A DNA stretch of 64,000 nucleotides from Actinoplanes lutulentus (GTDB lineage: Bacteria; Actinomycetota; Actinomycetes; Mycobacteriales; Micromonosporaceae), in contig NZ_QLMJ01000002.1 in the NCBI RefSeq assembly GCF_003259845.1, forward strand, positions 372,001 through 436,000, in the 5' to 3' direction. A program made the position numbers and the translations under genes. The notes under the pieces are model-generated. The model searched no databases. It saw nothing but the letters and a program-made list of their open reading frames with translations, and was not told the DNA's origin. Positions within the stretch are counted from its first letter, which is position 1. Each line of letters starts with the position of its first letter. Of this stretch, positions 10,253 to 19,967 are shown one piece after another.

Positions 10253-10413
10253 ACCGGTTTCGCGGTGACTCTGTGTAGCGGTTTCCGGTTTGCCGGATCC
10301 TGAACGATGATTTGGTCGCACGGCGCTGTTGATCGCGATACGGAACGTATGGATGATCGGACTCGTCCGTTAGGACGACGTGACTGACGGAAAGCAGACA
10401 CTAGCGTTCCCGT

Positions 10414-12978
10414 GTGGCGAATCGGTTCCAACTTTGGGGACAAGCGGGCTGGGCAAGTGCCGAGGTGGTCGGCGAGACGCACTACGCGAAGGCGATACGT
10501 GCTCTCTTCGGCTCCGACTTCAACCCCCAGGGCACCGACATAACCGTTCCTGTGCAGCTCATACCGGATCGGAACAACCGCCACGACCGTAACGCGGTCG
10601 GCGTCTGGTCCGACACCAGCCTGCTCGGACACCTGCCCCGGCCCGAGGCCGCGCGGTACGTCAAGGTGCTCACCACGCTCACTGGCCGTGGTCTCGTACC
10701 CGAGGTGAACGCCCAGATCCACGGCCGCGAGTGGGGCGAGTACGACGGCCGCCCGCCCGCGTTCGTCGGCACCATCCGGCTGGACCTCGCCGAGCCGCAC
10801 ATGCTGTACCCGGCGAACGACCCGCCGCTGGCCGACCATCGACTGCTGCCCTCCGGCTCGGCCGTCCAGGTCAACGGCCAGCAGCAGCACCTCGACGCGC
10901 TGCGCCCGCTGCTGCGTCCCGAGGGCGAGTGCTGGGCGTACGTGTCCCTGCACGAGATGGCCGACCACCTCGTCGAGGTTCGCATCGGCGACGCCCGGGT
11001 CGGCGACCTGAGCCCGAAGATGAGCGGCGAGCTGCTGCCGTCGCTGCGCCACCTCTCCGAGCAGGGCCTGCTCACCGCGGCCCGGGGCATCGTGAAAGGC
11101 AACGCCGGCGAGACCAGCGTGATGCTCTACATCTCCCGCGTCCAAGATCTGCCGGAAGCCTGGCAGGGGCGCGGGGCGTCGGCGCCGTCCGCTTTCCCGG
11201 CCTCCACGACTCCCGGCCGGGCCACAGCGAGTGTGCCCACGTCCGGCGCGGCCTCCACGGGACCGGTCACGCCAGGCGCGGCACCGGGCCCGGCCGGGGG
11301 AATCACCCCGAACTGGACGACGCCGGCCGAGCCGAGCTGGGCAGCAGCCGGTTCCGGTGCTCCTGGAGCTGGAGCTGGAGCTGGAGCTGGCGTTTCTGGT
11401 TCTGGCGTTTCTGGTTCTGGGGTTTCTGGTTCTGGGGTTCCTGGTTCTGGTGAGCAGGCGCCTAATTGGGGCGCCGGGTCCGGCGAGCCGGCGCCGAGCT
11501 GGGCAGCGTCCGGTGAGGCGGTGCCGAGCTGGGTTCGTAGCGACGAGACGCAGGGCTGGACCCCTGGCGGGCCCGGCGAGACGACGTCCGGCTGGTCAGC
11601 CGGCCAGTCCGGGCTGAGGCTCGGCATCGCGAGCGACGCGGGCCTGGGCCGGGCAACCACCGGGCGTGATGCCGTCTCCGGCCGTGACGCCGACGGCCGT
11701 GATGGCGGATCTGGTCAGGACAACGGTTTCGGCCGGGTGGGTCCGGGCGACGGCCTGCCGGTCCGTTCGGCCGGTGGCGAGCCGGTGCCGAGCTGGGCCA
11801 CGCCGGGCGAGCAGGTGCCGAGCTGGGCGGCGGCCAACGAAAGCATGCCCAGCTGGGGCGCGCAGGGCGAATCGGCGCCGGGCTGGGGTACGCAGGGCGA
11901 CTCGGCGCCGAGCTGGGGTGCGCAGGGCGAATCGGCTCCTACCTGGGCCGCGCAGGGCGATGCGGTGCCGAGCTGGGCCACGCCGAGCACCGGGGTGCCG
12001 GCCTGGGCCGTACCCAGCGCCACCGCCCTGCCCACGCTGCCCTCCACCGGGTCGCTGCCCGGTGGCACCGTCCCGCGCCTGGACCCGCCGGCCGACGCCG
12101 GTTCTGCCCGCGCCGACGCTGGTTCCGCCCGCCCGGCCTCGCCGGCGCCCAACTCGGCGTTGCCGGGCTCTCCGATCTCCGGTTCGCCGAACGCGGGTTC
12201 GTCCGCGGCTACGAACTCCGGCCCGCCCTCCGGCCCGGCAAACTCAGGCCAGGCCTCGGGTCCGTCGTTCGCCGGCTCACCCAACTCCGGTACGTCCTTC
12301 GGCGGCCCGTCCGCTTCGGTGTCAGGGCCGCCGCCGTCCGGTTCGTCGTCGTCGGCGTTCCCGTCGGGTTCGTACTCCTCGGTCTCGTCCCTGACCTCCG
12401 GCGGACAGAACGGGCCGTCCGGCCCCGGATCATCCGGTTCCATCTCGTCCGGTTCCAACTCGTCCAGCTCCGGATTGTCTGACCCGGGCTCCTCCGGCGC
12501 GGTCGCGTCAGGTTCCGGGTTGTCCGGCTCCGGTTCGTCACTCACGGCGACGGCGTTGCCGGCCTCACCACTGTCGGCCATCCCGGCTTCGGGCGCGCCG
12601 TCGTTCGGTGACACCGGCTTGATCGACCCATTCACCAACCCGGTCAGCCCGGCGCCGATCGGCCAGTCCCTGGACAGCGCGAACATCACCGAGACCACGG
12701 TGATCCCAGCACTGGCAGCCGTGGTCAAGAGCAACGCCAACCGCCGCTCCGCCACCAACCCGATCAACCCGGTCTCCCCGGTCGCGCCGGTATCCCCAGC
12801 AGCCGAAGCCAACCCGCACCCGCCCATCCCCGGCGCGCCCACCGGCATCAAGTTCGCGGTCCCCCCGGGCTGGCCGGTCCCGCCGGACGGCTGGTACCCC
12901 CCAGAAGGCTGGCGCCCCGACCCCGGCTGGCCCCTGGCCCCGACCGGCTGGCAGTGGTGGACCCCCATCTGGGACTGA
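10414..12978 (+). CDS. HIRAN-domain protein with long disordered, repeat-rich tail
   Basis: 854 aa from GTG 10414. Residues 15-110 are a HIRAN domain ('AEVVGETHYAKAIRALFG...VPVQLIPDRNNRHDRNAVGVW...LGHLPRPEAARYVKVL'). Residues 145-240 look like a second, diverged copy ('VEVRIGDARVGDLSPKMSGELL'). HIRAN domains bind 3' DNA ends and stalled forks in Rad5/HLTF-type proteins. From about 250 the protein is disordered: G-A and V-S-G-S-G repeats, many 'PSW-A-GE' units, then a Ser/Pro/Gly stretch. The last 40 residues are a Pro/Trp motif ('PPGWPVPPDGWYPPEGWRPD') seen at the ends of other actinobacterial proteins. No catalytic domain is seen. It precedes the giant helicase-nuclease gene on the same strand. 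Confidence 0.8.
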   Translation: MANRFQLWGQAGWASAEVVGETHYAKAIRALFGSDFNPQGTDITVPVQLIPDRNNRHDRNAVGVWSDTSLLGHLPRPEAARYVKVLTTLTGRGLVPEVNAQIHGREWGEYDGRPPAFVGTIRLDLAEPHMLYPANDPPLADHRLLPSGSAVQVNGQQQHLDALRPLLRPEGECWAYVSLHEMADHLVEVRIGDARVGDLSPKMSGELLPSLRHLSEQGLLTAARGIVKGNAGETSVMLYISRVQDLPEAWQGRGASAPSAFPASTTPGRATASVPTSGAASTGPVTPGAAPGPAGGITPNWTTPAEPSWAAAGSGAPGAGAGAGAGVSGSGVSGSGVSGSGVPGSGEQAPNWGAGSGEPAPSWAASGEAVPSWVRSDETQGWTPGGPGETTSGWSAGQSGLRLGIASDAGLGRATTGRDAVSGRDADGRDGGSGQDNGFGRVGPGDGLPVRSAGGEPVPSWATPGEQVPSWAAANESMPSWGAQGESAPGWGTQGDSAPSWGAQGESAPTWAAQGDAVPSWATPSTGVPAWAVPSATALPTLPSTGSLPGGTVPRLDPPADAGSARADAGSARPASPAPNSALPGSPISGSPNAGSSAATNSGPPSGPANSGQASGPSFAGSPNSGTSFGGPSASVSGPPPSGSSSSAFPSGSYSSVSSLTSGGQNGPSGPGSSGSISSGSNSSSSGLSDPGSSGAVASGSGLSGSGSSLTATALPASPLSAIPASGAPSFGDTGLIDPFTNPVSPAPIGQSLDSANITETTVIPALAAVVKSNANRRSATNPINPVSPVAPVSPAAEANPHPPIPGAPTGIKFAVPPGWPVPPDGWYPPEGWRPDPGWPLAPTGWQWWTPIWD

Positions 12979-13470: not shown

Positions 13471-13622
13471 GGGCTCACGGTGAGGGCTTGTCCAGGGTGG
13501 GCGGCGGCTCACGGTGAGTGCTTGTCCGGGGTGGGTAGGGGCTCACCGTGGGGACTTGTGCGGGGTGGGTGGGGGCTCACCGTGGAGGCCTGTCCGGGGT
13601 GGGTAGGGGCTCACCGTGGGCC
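13471..13622. repeat. 34-bp tandem repeat array, about 4.5 copies
   Basis: Units begin at 13471, 13505, 13539, 13573 and 13607. Each reads roughly GGGCTCACSGTGRG followed by KMCTTGTCCGGGGTGGGTRG. The first two units hold the palindrome CTCAC-G-GTGAG; later units have lost it (CTCACCGTGGGG). Copy-number variation between strains would be expected. Confidence 0.85.
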
Positions 13623-13862
13623 GGCGATCAAGGGCGGCGGCCGGGTGGGCGGCTTTCGGGTGTGGGGTGGGTGGGGCGGGTGGGGTACGCCACGCCCGGG
13701 ACGAACGCGGTGTCGATAATGTTCTGTTTGTGGGGTTTTGTGGCGGCAGAGCACGTCTTGGGCCTGGTTCGACAGGCCGAATTCGATTGGTTGAAGTCCG
13801 GAACGTCGGGTTAACCCGGAAAATCGCCACGGTGACCCACCTTGCCTTGTTGGAATGTGGCA

Positions 13863-16800
13863 ATGCGGTGGGATGATGCTGACGGGTTGACCGGACGGCC
13901 GGATGCGCGTGTTCGCGGAGTGCTGGAGTCCTGGCGTGCCGGTCTGCTCGACTTCACCGGTGACAATCCACTGATCGACGTGGATCCAACAGGGCCCGGC
14001 GTCGTGGCGGTGGTGAGCCCGACGCCGCGGACGATCATTGAGGCGTTGCACCAGGGGCGTGAGTGCGGGTTCCTCGGGATCGAGGAACAGGCCGAGGGGC
14101 CACGGCCGCGCGCCGCCAACGTGTTCCAGACCGAGATGATCGACGCGGACATGGACGCGACGCTGCACGCCCTGCGGCGTACGGCGCGGCGTGACCAGTT
14201 CGAGCAGGGGATCTCGGCGCTGTATCTGGCGCTCGGGTCGCTGCATTGGCAGGACGGCGGGCAGCGGTTCACCAGCCCGATCCTGCTGCTGCCGGTCGAG
14301 CTGGTCGTGCCGGATCCGCTCGACTACCCACGGTTGCAGGCCCGGCCGGACGACCCGATCGTCAACCCGGCGCTCGCGGTCCGGCTGCGGGCGTACGGGA
14401 TCGAGCTCCCGGTCGTGGACAGCCTCAACGGCCTGGACCTGACCGTGTTCTGGGCCCGCCTGGACGCCGCGATCAGCGAGCAGCCGGACTGGCACTCGGA
14501 CGAGGCCGTGCTGCTGTCCCGCTTCGACGTGCAGCGCGAGGTGATGTACGCCGACCTGGTCGAGAACGAACGGCAGATCCTCGCTCACCCGGTGGTCCGC
14601 GCCCTCGCCACCGATCCGATCTCGCAGCCGGACGCGCTGCGCTTCGAACCCGTACCCCTGAATCGCATCGACGAGCTGGCCGCGCCGGACGACGTGCCGC
14701 TGGTGCTGGACGCCGACGCCGCGCAGCGGTCGGCGATCGCGGCGGCCGTGGCCGGGCGCACGTTCGTGATGCGCGGCGCGCCCGGCACCGGCAAGACGCA
14801 GACGGTCGCCAACATGATCGCCTGCCTGATCCACGCCGGGAAGCGGGTGCTGCTGGTCTCCGAGAAGGCGGCCGCGCTGGACGGCGTCCGGGAGCGGCTG
14901 GGCGGGGTCGGCCTCGACGAGTACCTGCTCGAACTGCACAGCGACCGGATCGGCCGCTACCAGGTGGCGAGCACGCTCGCCACCGCGCTCGACTTCATCC
15001 CGCTGCCGCCGCCGAGCCTTTCCACCGACGAGCGCGAGGAGCTGCGCCAGCACCGGATCAGGCTCAATGCGTACGCCGAAGCGATGAACGAGGTCCGTGA
15101 ACCCCTCGGTCACCGGCTGCACGACGTGCTCGGCATGTGCGCCCAGATGACCGATCTACCGGCCGGTCCGGTGCCGTCCACGCTGCCCGTACCCCTGACG
15201 ACGCAATCGCTGCAGCGCGTCCGGGACGCCGCGGAGAGTCTCGGCCGCGCGTGGCGGCCGGCGCTGGAGGGCGACGAGTTCCTCTGGCGTGACGTGATCG
15301 ACCGCAACCGCCTGGACGCTCGCCTGCACCAGGCACAGATCGCCCTGCAGCACCTGGCCGAAGCGGTCGCGGGGGACCGGCTCGCGGTGGTCTTCGAGGC
15401 GCAGGCCCTCTCCGACGCGATCACCCTGACGACGCTGGTCGGGCACGCCGCCCGCCGGCCCGCCGAGGCACCCGACGAGTGGCTCACCCTGGAGAGCCTG
15501 GAGCCGGTCGCGGCCGCCGCCGAGAGCCTGGTCGGCCACCTGCGATCGCTGCACCACGCCGAGGAGGTCGTGCGTACGAAAGCGGGTGTGACCTGGTCGG
15601 CGTTGCCGTCCCCGGCGAAGTTGCCGATCGTGCCGAGCCTGGCCCACCTGAACCCGCCGGCCGTGGAGCTGCTGCCGCTGACGGCCGCGCAGGCCCGGGG
15701 ACTGGCCCGCCGGTTCGCCGAGGAGGCCGACCGCCTCGAACAGCATCAGCACAGCCTGGACCGGGTCACCGCCCGGCTTGGCCTGCCGAACGTGGTCGCG
15801 TTCACCGACATCGGCCGGGTCGCCGCGATCGTCGAGCTGCTCAACCGGCCGCACAAGCCGGAGCCCAGCTGGTTCGACACGTCCGGGATGGCGGCCGCCC
15901 GTGCCGCCGCCCGGGTGCTGCAGCGCGCCGTCGACGTGGTGAAGGCCGCCGAGTCCCGGGCTCGCGAGCACTTCAACGAGAACGCCCTGGTCGAGCCGGT
16001 GGACGAGCTCGTCGAGCGGTTCGCCACCGAGCACAAGGGGATGCGCAAGCTGCGGGCGCCGTACCGGCGGGACAAGCGGGTCGCGGCCGGCATCGCGCGT
16101 ACCGACGTGAAGCGCTCGGAAGCGGTCGCCAACCTCGCCGCCGCGGCCGCCTGGAAGCGGGCCATCGGCGAGCTGGAGCAGTCCGAGCAGGAGTACGCCC
16201 GGATTCTCGGCAGCCACTGGCGGCACCTGGACACCGACTTCGAGGCGATCCAGGAGGCGCTGCGTACCGCCGAGGAGGCCCTGCGGGTCACCCCGCCGGA
16301 GGCGCTGCCCGGCGTCATCGAGCGGGTCTGCGCGCCGACCCCGAACAGCGCGATCATCCGGATCGTCACCGAGGCGCGCAAGGAGTTCGACCGGTTCACC
16401 GCGGCGTTGCGTACGCCCCCCGAGCCGGCGCCTCGCCCGCAGCTCGCCTCCGGTCCGGTGCACGACGCGGTCACCTGGCTGCGGGCGCACGTGGAGCCGC
16501 TGACCGCCGCCGGTGACCTGGTCACCGCGTACAGCGTGGCGGCCGGGCGGGACTTCACCCTCGCCGAGTCGGCGTCGATCGGCCTGCTCCGGGAGAGCGC
16601 GTCGGACGCGGCCGGCTCGCTGACGACGAACGCGAACGATTACGCCGAGGTGCTCGGCCCGGTCTACCGGGGCACCCAGACCGACGTGGAGGCGCTCGCC
16701 AAGGCCATGTCCTGGGCGTCCGAGGCCCGCCGGGTACGCGCCGGCGAGGACATCCCGTTCACCCCTGAGCAGGCCGAGGCGCTCGCCCAGGTACGCCCGA

Positions 16801-19800
16801 CCGACGCCCTGCCGTCCCGGGTCGCCGAATGGCAGGCCGCCCGCGACTGGATCCTGCGGGCCTTCGCGCCGCGCCGGCACCCGTCGCTGACCGCCACCCT
16901 GGACGACTACGAACACGCCGGTGAACTGATCACCGCGCTGATGGAGGACAACCAGGGGCAGCAGGAGTGGTTCGACCACCAGGCGGCCCGCGCGGTGCTC
17001 AGCGAGCACGGCCTGGACTCGGTCGTGGACTTCTGCGCCCGGGAGGACCTGTCGGTCGACCAGCTGCTGCCGGTGCTCGGACGAGCGCTGTTCCAGTCCT
17101 GGGCCGACATGATCATCCGCGAGGACGAGCGGCTGCCTCCGCTCGACGCGGCCACCCGCGACCGCCTGATCAGCGAGTTCCGTCTCTGGGACACGATGCT
17201 GGAACGGGCCGCGGTGGCCGACGTGATGAACGCCGTCGACGAGTTGCAGCCGTCCGGCACCGCGGTCGCCGAGGCCGCCATGCTGCGGGCCGCGGCGTCC
17301 CAGCAGGGCCGCCAGCCGGCGGTACGGGAACTGCTCGCCGAGACCCGCAACGCCACCCTCGCGGTGAAGCCGTGTGTGCTGACCATCCCGGCCGACGTGA
17401 GCCGGCTGATCCCGTCCGACCTGTTCTTCGACGTCGTCATCGTCGACGAGGCGTCCCGGGTGCCGGTCGCTGACGCGATCACCTGCGCGTACCGGGCCAG
17501 CTCGATGATCGTGGTGGGTGACGACCGGCAGCTCGGCGCGGCACCGCTGCCCGGCGGCGACGGCCAGTCGATCCTGGGCCTGGCGATCCACTGCGGCGCG
17601 TTCCCGGTCATGGACCTGACCACGCATTACCGCAGCCGGCACGAGTCGCTGATCTCGTTCGCCAACCACAGCTTCTACGCCGGGCGGCTCAATACGTTCC
17701 CGGCAGTCGGGCCCGCCGGGCCGGACGCCGGTGTGCAGCTGTTCGGCGCCGAGGACGACGCGAGCCTGGCCGAGGAGGTGGCGAGCCGGGTGGCGCACCA
17801 CCTGGTCACCCGCCCCGACCGCACGCTCGGCGTGGTCACCTGCACCCCGTCGATGCGGTGGGAGATCGAGGCCGCGGTGGCCGACATGGTCGGGTCACCG
17901 GACTCGGATCGGCTGCGCGGGTTCTTCGTGAAGGACCTCGACTCGGTACAGGGCGACGAGCGGGACGTGATGATCCTGGCGATCGGCACCGAGCTCGGCG
18001 GCCTGGACGGACCGGACGGATGGCGGCGGCTCAACGTCGCGACGACCCGCGCGGCCCGCCGCCTCGAGGTGGTCTCCGCGGTCCGGGGACAGGACCTTTC
18101 CGGGTACGAGCACCTGGGCCACCTGGCCGGATACCTGGAATACGCGGCCGGTGGCGGCACCGCCCTGGACCTCACGGATCCGGCGGCCGAGGCACAGACG
18201 CCGTTCGAGGACTCGGTTCGCGAGGTGATCGCCTCCTGGGGTCATCACGTGCGGACCCGGGTCGGCACCGGAGCCTTCCGGGTCGACCTGGCCGTCCGCC
18301 TCTCGCACCGCGGCGATTCCCCGTTCGTCCTCGGCATCGAGTGCGACGGGACCACGTACGATTCCGCGCCCGCCGCCCGTGACCGGGACCGGCTGCGTGA
18401 GCAGGTTCTTCAGGGGCTGGGCTGGCGCCTGCACCGGATCTGGGGCACCGCCTGGTACCTGGACCGCGAGCACGAGGAGCAGCGGCTCCGGATCGCGATC
18501 GAGCAGGCCCTGGCCCAGTACCCCGCCGAGGCACCGGCGGAGCTGACGGTCGAGGAGAGCCCGGTCGCCGAGAGTCCCGTCATGGCGGACCCTCTCGCCG
18601 AGAGCCCGGTCATGGAGAGCCCGGTCGCCGAGAGCCTTGTCATGGACAGCTCGGACATCCTGGCCGAGGCGTTCGCGGAGGCGGACGCCGCCGAGGGCGC
18701 CTTCGCCGAGGCCTTTGCCGAGGTCTACGGGGAGACGTCGGAGCACGCTTACGGGGAGAACGTCGAGCACACCGTGTACGGCGGGCCCGACGAGGTCACC
18801 GTCGAGATCACCCCGCAGGAGACGGCGGCCGCGACCGGCCCGGTCCTGCAGTACGACGTCCCGGCCGGCCCGGAGCCGTGGTACCTGGCCGCGGACTACC
18901 TGATCGACGAGGCGGGCGCGTACCTCGCCGGTGTCGACGACGTCGGGCGGCAGATCGCCGACGCCGGCATCACCGTGCCGGCCGCCGAGATCCCGCACGA
19001 GTGGACCGCCGCGCCGGCGATGGCCGACGTGCAGCTCGACGCGGACCTGGAGCCGCCGTTCGCGTACGAGAGCCAGCCCGACGTGGTGGTCGGCGATCAG
19101 CACGTCACGCCGGTGGCCTTCGAGCACCTGCACCGGGCCGACATCGACCCGGCCGACATGCACCCGATCCCCGAGCACGCCGCGGAGATCTACGAGGCCG
19201 AGCACTACGAGGCCGAACACTACGAAGCCGAGCACTACGAGGCCGAGGTCGAGGCCGAGGACGTCGAGGAGCACGAGGAACACCCGGTCTCCGAGCACCT
19301 CAGCGAGATCTGGACCGAGCCGTACCACAAGGCGCAGCTGGAGGCGCTGCCCGCCGGCGCCGTACTCACCGACCCGGACATCAAGGTGCGGCTGGTCGAC
19401 GCGGCGCGGCAGCTCGCGCAGGTGGAAGGCCCGGTGCACATCACGATCGCACTGCAGCGGATGCGCGAGGAGTGGGGCATCGCCCGGATCACGAAGCAGG
19501 CCCGCGCCGCGGTCGAACAAGCGATCGCCGACGCCGGCCTGGGCTGGGACGGCACGTTCCTGAGCGACCCCGAACAGTACGAGCCGATGGTCCGCTCGAA
19601 GGCCGATGATGTGGCGCGCAAGGCCGACCAGGTTGCCGACAGCGAACTGCGGGTGGCACTGGAACACCTGGTCCACGACGGCGGCGTACTCACCGTCGAC
19701 CAGTTGCTGGCCGGGACCGCGCGGCTGTACGGCTGGTCGGCGCGCCGCTCCGCCGACATCGACGCCCGGCTCACCGGGTTGATCGCCGACCTGGCCGACG

Positions 19801-19967
19801 AGGGACACCTGATCCACCAGGCGGACGGCCTCGCCATCGGGCACGGGCTTCCGGACGCGACGTCGCTGCCCCGGCACGCGGCCGCGCCGTCCGAACAGGA
19901 CGAGGAAGAGGAGGAGTCGATGACCAAGCCGTCCCGCCGGCGACGGTCATCGGCCAGCCACAAGTGA
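13863..19967 (+). CDS. DUF4011 / SF1 helicase / Vsr-like nuclease / DUF3320 protein (Hhe-type defence candidate)
   Basis: About 2034 aa from ATG 13863 (TTG 13842 and GTG 13857 are alternative starts). The N-terminus is DUF4011-like ('WRAGLLDFTGDNPLIDVDP'). Walker A GAPGTGKT is at about residue 305. An 880-residue, mostly helical insertion separates it from motif II (VDEAS, about 1195), then 'VVGDDRQLGAAPLP', 'THYRSRHESLISFAN', 'DLDSVQGDERDVMILAIG' and motif VI 'NVATTRAARRLEVV'. A Vsr/MTES_1575-type nuclease region follows (about 1447-1540), with 'FRVDLAV', 'GIECDGTTY' and 'RDRLREQVLQGLGWRLHRIW'. An acidic repetitive linker leads to a C-terminal DUF3320 region (about 1820-2000). This domain order matches Hhe antiviral proteins. 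All helicase motifs look intact. Confidence 0.9.
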   Translation: MRWDDADGLTGRPDARVRGVLESWRAGLLDFTGDNPLIDVDPTGPGVVAVVSPTPRTIIEALHQGRECGFLGIEEQAEGPRPRAANVFQTEMIDADMDATLHALRRTARRDQFEQGISALYLALGSLHWQDGGQRFTSPILLLPVELVVPDPLDYPRLQARPDDPIVNPALAVRLRAYGIELPVVDSLNGLDLTVFWARLDAAISEQPDWHSDEAVLLSRFDVQREVMYADLVENERQILAHPVVRALATDPISQPDALRFEPVPLNRIDELAAPDDVPLVLDADAAQRSAIAAAVAGRTFVMRGAPGTGKTQTVANMIACLIHAGKRVLLVSEKAAALDGVRERLGGVGLDEYLLELHSDRIGRYQVASTLATALDFIPLPPPSLSTDEREELRQHRIRLNAYAEAMNEVREPLGHRLHDVLGMCAQMTDLPAGPVPSTLPVPLTTQSLQRVRDAAESLGRAWRPALEGDEFLWRDVIDRNRLDARLHQAQIALQHLAEAVAGDRLAVVFEAQALSDAITLTTLVGHAARRPAEAPDEWLTLESLEPVAAAAESLVGHLRSLHHAEEVVRTKAGVTWSALPSPAKLPIVPSLAHLNPPAVELLPLTAAQARGLARRFAEEADRLEQHQHSLDRVTARLGLPNVVAFTDIGRVAAIVELLNRPHKPEPSWFDTSGMAAARAAARVLQRAVDVVKAAESRAREHFNENALVEPVDELVERFATEHKGMRKLRAPYRRDKRVAAGIARTDVKRSEAVANLAAAAAWKRAIGELEQSEQEYARILGSHWRHLDTDFEAIQEALRTAEEALRVTPPEALPGVIERVCAPTPNSAIIRIVTEARKEFDRFTAALRTPPEPAPRPQLASGPVHDAVTWLRAHVEPLTAAGDLVTAYSVAAGRDFTLAESASIGLLRESASDAAGSLTTNANDYAEVLGPVYRGTQTDVEALAKAMSWASEARRVRAGEDIPFTPEQAEALAQVRPTDALPSRVAEWQAARDWILRAFAPRRHPSLTATLDDYEHAGELITALMEDNQGQQEWFDHQAARAVLSEHGLDSVVDFCAREDLSVDQLLPVLGRALFQSWADMIIREDERLPPLDAATRDRLISEFRLWDTMLERAAVADVMNAVDELQPSGTAVAEAAMLRAAASQQGRQPAVRELLAETRNATLAVKPCVLTIPADVSRLIPSDLFFDVVIVDEASRVPVADAITCAYRASSMIVVGDDRQLGAAPLPGGDGQSILGLAIHCGAFPVMDLTTHYRSRHESLISFANHSFYAGRLNTFPAVGPAGPDAGVQLFGAEDDASLAEEVASRVAHHLVTRPDRTLGVVTCTPSMRWEIEAAVADMVGSPDSDRLRGFFVKDLDSVQGDERDVMILAIGTELGGLDGPDGWRRLNVATTRAARRLEVVSAVRGQDLSGYEHLGHLAGYLEYAAGGGTALDLTDPAAEAQTPFEDSVREVIASWGHHVRTRVGTGAFRVDLAVRLSHRGDSPFVLGIECDGTTYDSAPAARDRDRLREQVLQGLGWRLHRIWGTAWYLDREHEEQRLRIAIEQALAQYPAEAPAELTVEESPVAESPVMADPLAESPVMESPVAESLVMDSSDILAEAFAEADAAEGAFAEAFAEVYGETSEHAYGENVEHTVYGGPDEVTVEITPQETAAATGPVLQYDVPAGPEPWYLAADYLIDEAGAYLAGVDDVGRQIADAGITVPAAEIPHEWTAAPAMADVQLDADLEPPFAYESQPDVVVGDQHVTPVAFEHLHRADIDPADMHPIPEHAAEIYEAEHYEAEHYEAEHYEAEVEAEDVEEHEEHPVSEHLSEIWTEPYHKAQLEALPAGAVLTDPDIKVRLVDAARQLAQVEGPVHITIALQRMREEWGIARITKQARAAVEQAIADAGLGWDGTFLSDPEQYEPMVRSKADDVARKADQVADSELRVALEHLVHDGGVLTVDQLLAGTARLYGWSARRSADIDARLTGLIADLADEGHLIHQADGLAIGHGLPDATSLPRHAAAPSEQDEEEEESMTKPSRRRRSSASHK
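18541..19320 (+). repeat. Acidic repetitive linker inside the helicase-nuclease gene
   Basis: This part encodes reiterated E-S-P-V-A/M units (18556-18650), then A-E-A-F-A-E units, then four copies of YEAEH (19190-19250) and runs of Glu. It joins the nuclease to the DUF3320 region. The segment is strongly acidic and probably disordered. Confidence 0.8.

Follow-up and report, generated by a model that had tools for sequence, protein, structure and literature searches.

Defence systems are called in bulk from domain order, and the locus analysed here raises the question of how such a call fares for a gene whose product is closely related to named anti-phage proteins but which behaves genomically as a core gene. 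The gene concerned encodes a helicase-nuclease and lies in a 64,000-nucleotide stretch of the Actinoplanes lutulentus genome (contig NZ_QLMJ01000002.1), the whole of which we call the window. Its paralogues lose nuclease residues yet keep the motor, and the family offers a concrete system for testing the passage between defence enzymes and DNA-maintenance enzymes; we also propose a partnership in trans between the helicase and a HIRAN protein encoded next to it. The label A denotes the window helicase-nuclease and its orthologues, and B, C, D and E denote related family groups. The features of the locus are as follows.

10334 to 10413, + strand: conserved block ahead of the HIRAN start, almost invariant between -30 and -10 and likely to be regulatory
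10414 to 12978, + strand: HIRAN-domain gene (PF08797), with a low-complexity middle and a Trp/Pro-rich C-terminus
13801 to 13862, + strand: conserved block before the helicase ATG (GGAACGTCGGATTAACCCGGAAAA...), likely its own promoter or operator
13863 to 19967, + strand: helicase-nuclease gene, 2034 aa (open reading frame, Pfam domains, orthologue alignment)
13944 to 14387, + strand: DUF4011 domain, residues 28-175 (PF13195, E 6.5e-23)
14775 to 14798, + strand: helicase motif I (Walker A), GAPGTGKT, residues 305-312
15003 to 17312, + strand: stretch separating motifs Ia and II (residues ~381-1150), shared across the family
17445 to 17456, + strand: helicase motif II, DEAS, residues 1195-1198
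17763 to 18077, + strand: second RecA-like half, AAA_12, residues 1301-1405 (PF13087, E 4.9e-8)
18204 to 18500, + strand: MTES_1575/Vsr-like nuclease, residues 1448-1546 (PF18741, E 8.7e-30)
18573 to 19277, + strand: acidic repeat-rich linker, residues 1571-1805 (composition, tandem repeats, dN/dS 0.75-1.25)
19278 to 19907, + strand: conserved tail, probably a tandem winged HTH, with its DUF3320 core at residues 1843-1879

The reading frame is intact in the window from the ATG at 13863 to the stop at 19967, and we prefer this ATG over an upstream TTG at 13842 because the start MRWDDADG is common to the orthologues in our alignment. The encoded domains follow in the order DUF4011, SF1 helicase, MTES_1575/Vsr-like nuclease, acidic linker and DUF3320/winged-HTH tail. 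The two helicase halves lie near residues 285-367 and 1301-1405, matched by the Pfam models AAA_11 and AAA_12, and motifs III-VI were all found besides the Walker A and DEAS motifs. Pfam and alignment thus agree with an earlier note, written from the letters of the DNA, which had described one gene with a DUF4011-like start, an SF1 helicase with intact motifs and a Vsr/MTES_1575-like nuclease, and the acidic, repetitive linker that it placed before DUF3320 is borne out by composition (24% D/E, 1% K/R, net charge -55) and by tandem repeats. The length of the tail after the nuclease motif varies from 432 to 1068 aa across orthologues, and the linker has the look of an unconstrained spacer. The DUF3320 region of that note scores 23.3 bits (E 6e-5) in Pfam, just under the cut-off of 25.0, but can be aligned to the DUF3320 tails that relatives carry. 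Two AlphaFold predictions were made, one for the C-terminal part and one for the helicase part. The C-terminal model (mean pLDDT 51.6) is confident only in the tail, where it contains two HTH-like helical units; on this model the tail is probably a tandem winged HTH, consistent with the two winged HTHs reported to overlap DUF3320 in MTES_1575 (PMC3710099). The helicase model was unusable (mean pLDDT 39.9).

One claim of the earlier note fell, namely that an insertion of about 880 residues between motifs I and II sets the protein apart. Wherever the DEAS pattern was found in an A orthologue, the two motifs stand 890 residues apart; the figure is 877 for paralogue B, 881-896 for C and for D and 940 for the Hhe protein of a Klebsiella plasmid, and this similarity rules out the insertion as a distinguishing feature; sequence comparison marks it as a feature of the family and no novelty of the window protein. 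Shorter spacings are found in ProA-type proteins (~630) and in more distant Micromonosporaceae forms (525-545). The Ia-II region is helical in the low-confidence predicted model.

The nuclease domain scores 103.1 bits on PF18741, well above the cut-off of 38.2. The corresponding motif in most relatives reads ID..V...(I/V)ECDGxxYH...ARDRDRLR in the alignment, and all sampled A orthologues retain D1475, E1493 and D1495. At the site of the conserved His (...ECDGxxYH...), however, all of them carry Asp (D1500), so that A lacks the full active-site set of D, ExD and His, a change that, judged from the motif, may weaken the predicted cutting. The earlier note had not mentioned this substitution. The predicted model shows the alpha-beta order of a PD-(D/E)XK/Vsr fold in part and at low pLDDT, the nuclease part being likewise too uncertain for use, and a PDB fold search gave no match at E <= 0.001.

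The earlier note had further called the gene a candidate antiviral system of the Hhe type, which is right about the superfamily, shared with named anti-phage proteins, and wrong about Hhe. The window protein does have the Hhe architecture (DUF4011, SF1 helicase, MTES_1575 nuclease) and a comparable motif spacing, but its 509.9 bits on the NCBIfam Hhe model NF042953 miss the cut-off of 2000 fourfold, whereas the Klebsiella Hhe (WP_064145664, L195) scores 2732 bits and gives no DUF3320 match, which together rule out Hhe identity. The Klebsiella protein also differs in keeping the nuclease His (YHS) and in being plasmid-borne, next to transposases. Profile scores instead identify ProA/PDC-S37 as the closest branch: the best PADLOC match is PDC-S37 (PDLC05009) with 849 bits, against 323 bits for Hhe, and DUF4011, SF1 helicase and MTES_1575 nuclease stand in identical order, followed by the tail, whose DUF3320 match is below threshold in the window protein and present in an Azospirillum ProA-type protein. 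The ProA model itself (NF058533) gives 774.4 bits, short of its cut-off of 1500, and the window protein departs from ProA in motif spacing and from ProA/PDC-S37 in its nuclease His-to-Asp change, its long acidic linker, its HIRAN neighbour and its lack of mobility. Domain content and alignment nevertheless place it as a genuine member of the DUF4011/SF1 helicase/MTES_1575 nuclease/DUF3320 superfamily. The family tree pairs A and C as sister groups (support 1.0), unites this pair with B (0.92) and groups D with E (0.998). The MTES_1575-type giant proteins described by Anantharaman et al. 2013 (PMC3710099) share the SF1 helicase, the Vsr-like REase and the two winged HTHs overlapping DUF3320 but add HEPN and transglutaminase-like domains, for neither of which did a Pfam scan of the window protein give a match. 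The only relative from a phage collection (MT836269.1:6039-9845) lies in an unannotated 11.4-kb faecal 'Bacteriophage sp.' record.

Orthologues of the helicase and of its HIRAN neighbour occur in exactly the same genomes, 24 of 61 in the genus and 26 of 251 in the family, and all orthologues among named records are from Actinoplanes. The 24 carriers of A form one clade (support 0.974) in an rpoB tree built from 59 genomes, and 19 carriers of paralogue B form another (support 0.997); 16 outgroup species have neither. A is thus present in 24/24 sampled genomes of its rpoB clade and in 0/16 outgroup species, and the sister clades have no A orthologue. Its position is fixed, a statement that covers the 24 clade genomes sampled, with gene order checked in 18 loci plus the window: an ADH gene, the HIRAN gene and the helicase keep a constant order and strand, followed 3' of the helicase in the 18 loci by a phytase-like gene or the next conserved gene. 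Neighbours of the window gene are mainly metabolic, and a PADLOC scan of those tested gave no match. A mobile defence gene would be expected to be patchily distributed, to vary in position and to lie among other defence genes, a pattern that the locus does not show, and clade-wide presence, fixed position and the rpoB tree rule out recent mobile acquisition. We conclude that the window gene is a vertically inherited core gene of one Actinoplanes clade. Presence in every related genome at a fixed position, which the earlier note had named as counting against defence, is what we find within the clade, though not genus-wide. An empty A site, expected in sister-clade genomes upstream of their locus B, was not found, the region being rearranged there. 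In one sister-clade genome (G003, L230:156-5257), ORFs near the phytase locus resemble, by eye only, a BREX-like ATPase, a helicase of the DEAD type and a nuclease-like protein.

The upstream neighbour, to which the earlier note did not refer, matches the HIRAN model PF08797 in residues 1-249 with 26.1 bits against a cut-off of 24.7, and 13/13 relatives (the window gene and 12 others) lie above that cut-off. It is the constant neighbour of the A helicase. The gap between the two genes is 81-1030 bp where measured and, at 884 bp, longer in the window than in most relatives. In the sister clade the HIRAN homologue and the phytase gene are ~12 kb apart, and no helicase accompanies them; the link between HIRAN and helicase is confined to the A clade. 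The HIRAN domains of HLTF and Rad5 recognise exposed 3' ends or forks.

The analysis thus establishes the anatomy of the protein, the state of its motifs, its linkage to HIRAN, vertical inheritance and purifying selection; from these features together we infer a DNA substrate, cutting, HIRAN cooperation and a biological role as follows. An ATP-driven SF1 motor of the UPF1/SMUBP2/Dna2 kind, with its large insertion, would move along or unwind DNA; the Vsr-like nuclease would cut or nick it; the tail, which is probably a pair of winged HTHs tethered by a flexible acidic linker, would grip duplex DNA; and the HIRAN protein, by analogy with HLTF/Rad5, would sense exposed 3' ends or forks and bring the enzyme there. 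The gene would then be a lineage-fixed chromosomal helicase-nuclease, closest to the ProA/PDC-S37 branch, that as a resident of one clade's core genome surveys and processes DNA ends which are aberrant or foreign, an explanation that we hold tentatively, as one with not quite an even chance of being right. It is favoured by the domains and motifs, the closest profiles (PDC-S37 and ProA), the constant gene order and strand, the co-occurrence with HIRAN, the rpoB clades, the dN/dS values given below, the lack of PADLOC matches among neighbours and the conserved upstream blocks. Against it stand the anti-phage annotation of Hhe and ProA, the 407 plasmid records on which family relatives were found, the restriction of the HIRAN link to the A clade, the separate upstream blocks of the two genes and the His-to-Asp change.

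A DNA surveillance or repair role is as plausible as antiviral defence, and fixation in a core genome is compatible with the latter; by relatedness, antiviral activity is a possibility. In Pseudomonas aeruginosa, every isolate carries the DUF4011 gene PA14_RS11765 at one constant site, where it borders a defence hotspot (PMC10250203). This core gene resembles the window gene in domain and fixed position and differs in its surroundings, and it counts against our preferred explanation. The window gene may instead be a true single-gene anti-phage system of the ProA/Hhe type fixed in the clade core: its motor would track invading DNA for the nuclease to degrade, and HIRAN would serve as a sensor that is optional. 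We regard this as a real possibility, albeit one we would not expect to prevail: the architecture is common to the named anti-phage relatives, the best PADLOC match is a defence candidate, and helicase/Vsr/winged-HTH proteins have been proposed to recognise invading DNA directly through the winged HTH (PMC3710099), but both equivalog cut-offs, ProA and Hhe, are missed, inheritance is vertical, with the position fixed among all carriers sampled, the neighbours tested lack PADLOC matches, and the conserved nuclease His is replaced by Asp.

The paralogues bear on whether cutting matters at all. Each of the 26/26 carriers in the family sample has at least three family copies. Paralogue B occupies a different locus, between TetR/MMPL genes and, in most genomes examined, gene w37, and has Gln at the nuclease His site in most copies; C and D have conserved loci of their own in the genomes examined. 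Neither the catalytic Asp nor the catalytic Glu survives in the sampled C copies, and in the sampled D-group copies the Glu is replaced by Arg or Gln, the helicase motifs being retained in both. One genome holds such a pair, L034 (D) and L035 (C). This pattern, with the multiple copies and the His-to-Asp change in A, would fit a protein that is mainly motor or structural, its nuclease attenuated, with A, C and D as partners or diversified translocases and cutting secondary or lost. We consider that unlikely: all sampled A orthologues keep D1475, E1493 and D1495, purifying selection acts on the nuclease domain (dN/dS 0.29-0.52), and the partnership among A, C and D is hypothetical. With three vertically fixed paralogues, two of them with a degenerate nuclease, and the most intact of the three coupled to an end- or fork-targeting HIRAN protein, one might also imagine a defence-type family turned core machinery, an idea towards which we remain rather sceptical.

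Selection on the remaining regions, computed as dN/dS against five orthologues, is strongest in the N-terminal region (residues 1-280), with 0.09-0.25, followed by 0.16-0.29 in the Ia-II insertion and 0.33-0.57 in the conserved tail. The structured regions overall span 0.09-0.57, and the linker lies at about 1; the helicase-nuclease is thus maintained by purifying selection, linker excepted. That it is a decaying relic without function is highly improbable, since the frame is open in every carrier, purifying selection is strong and the upstream DNA is conserved, even though the conserved His is substituted and motif II reads EEAS instead of DEAS in two A orthologues, L040 and L047 (G046, G004).

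Conservation upstream extends over 10334-10473, that is, ~80 bp before the HIRAN gene and its first ~60 coding bases, with the core at -30 to -10 conserved at 99-100% across the clade, and the block before the HIRAN gene is single-copy in the genome. Because conserved DNA precedes both the HIRAN gene and the helicase, each may have its own promoter. No SOS box was found before either gene, a scan for damage-type promoters before both gave only matches with 2-4 mismatches in the 9-base core, and Rfam gave no match. The gap between the genes contains 34-bp tandem repeats (13471-13620). The block before the HIRAN gene contains an inverted repeat around CCGTACGG, and TAGCGT stands directly before the HIRAN GTG, a sequence that suggests a leaderless promoter.
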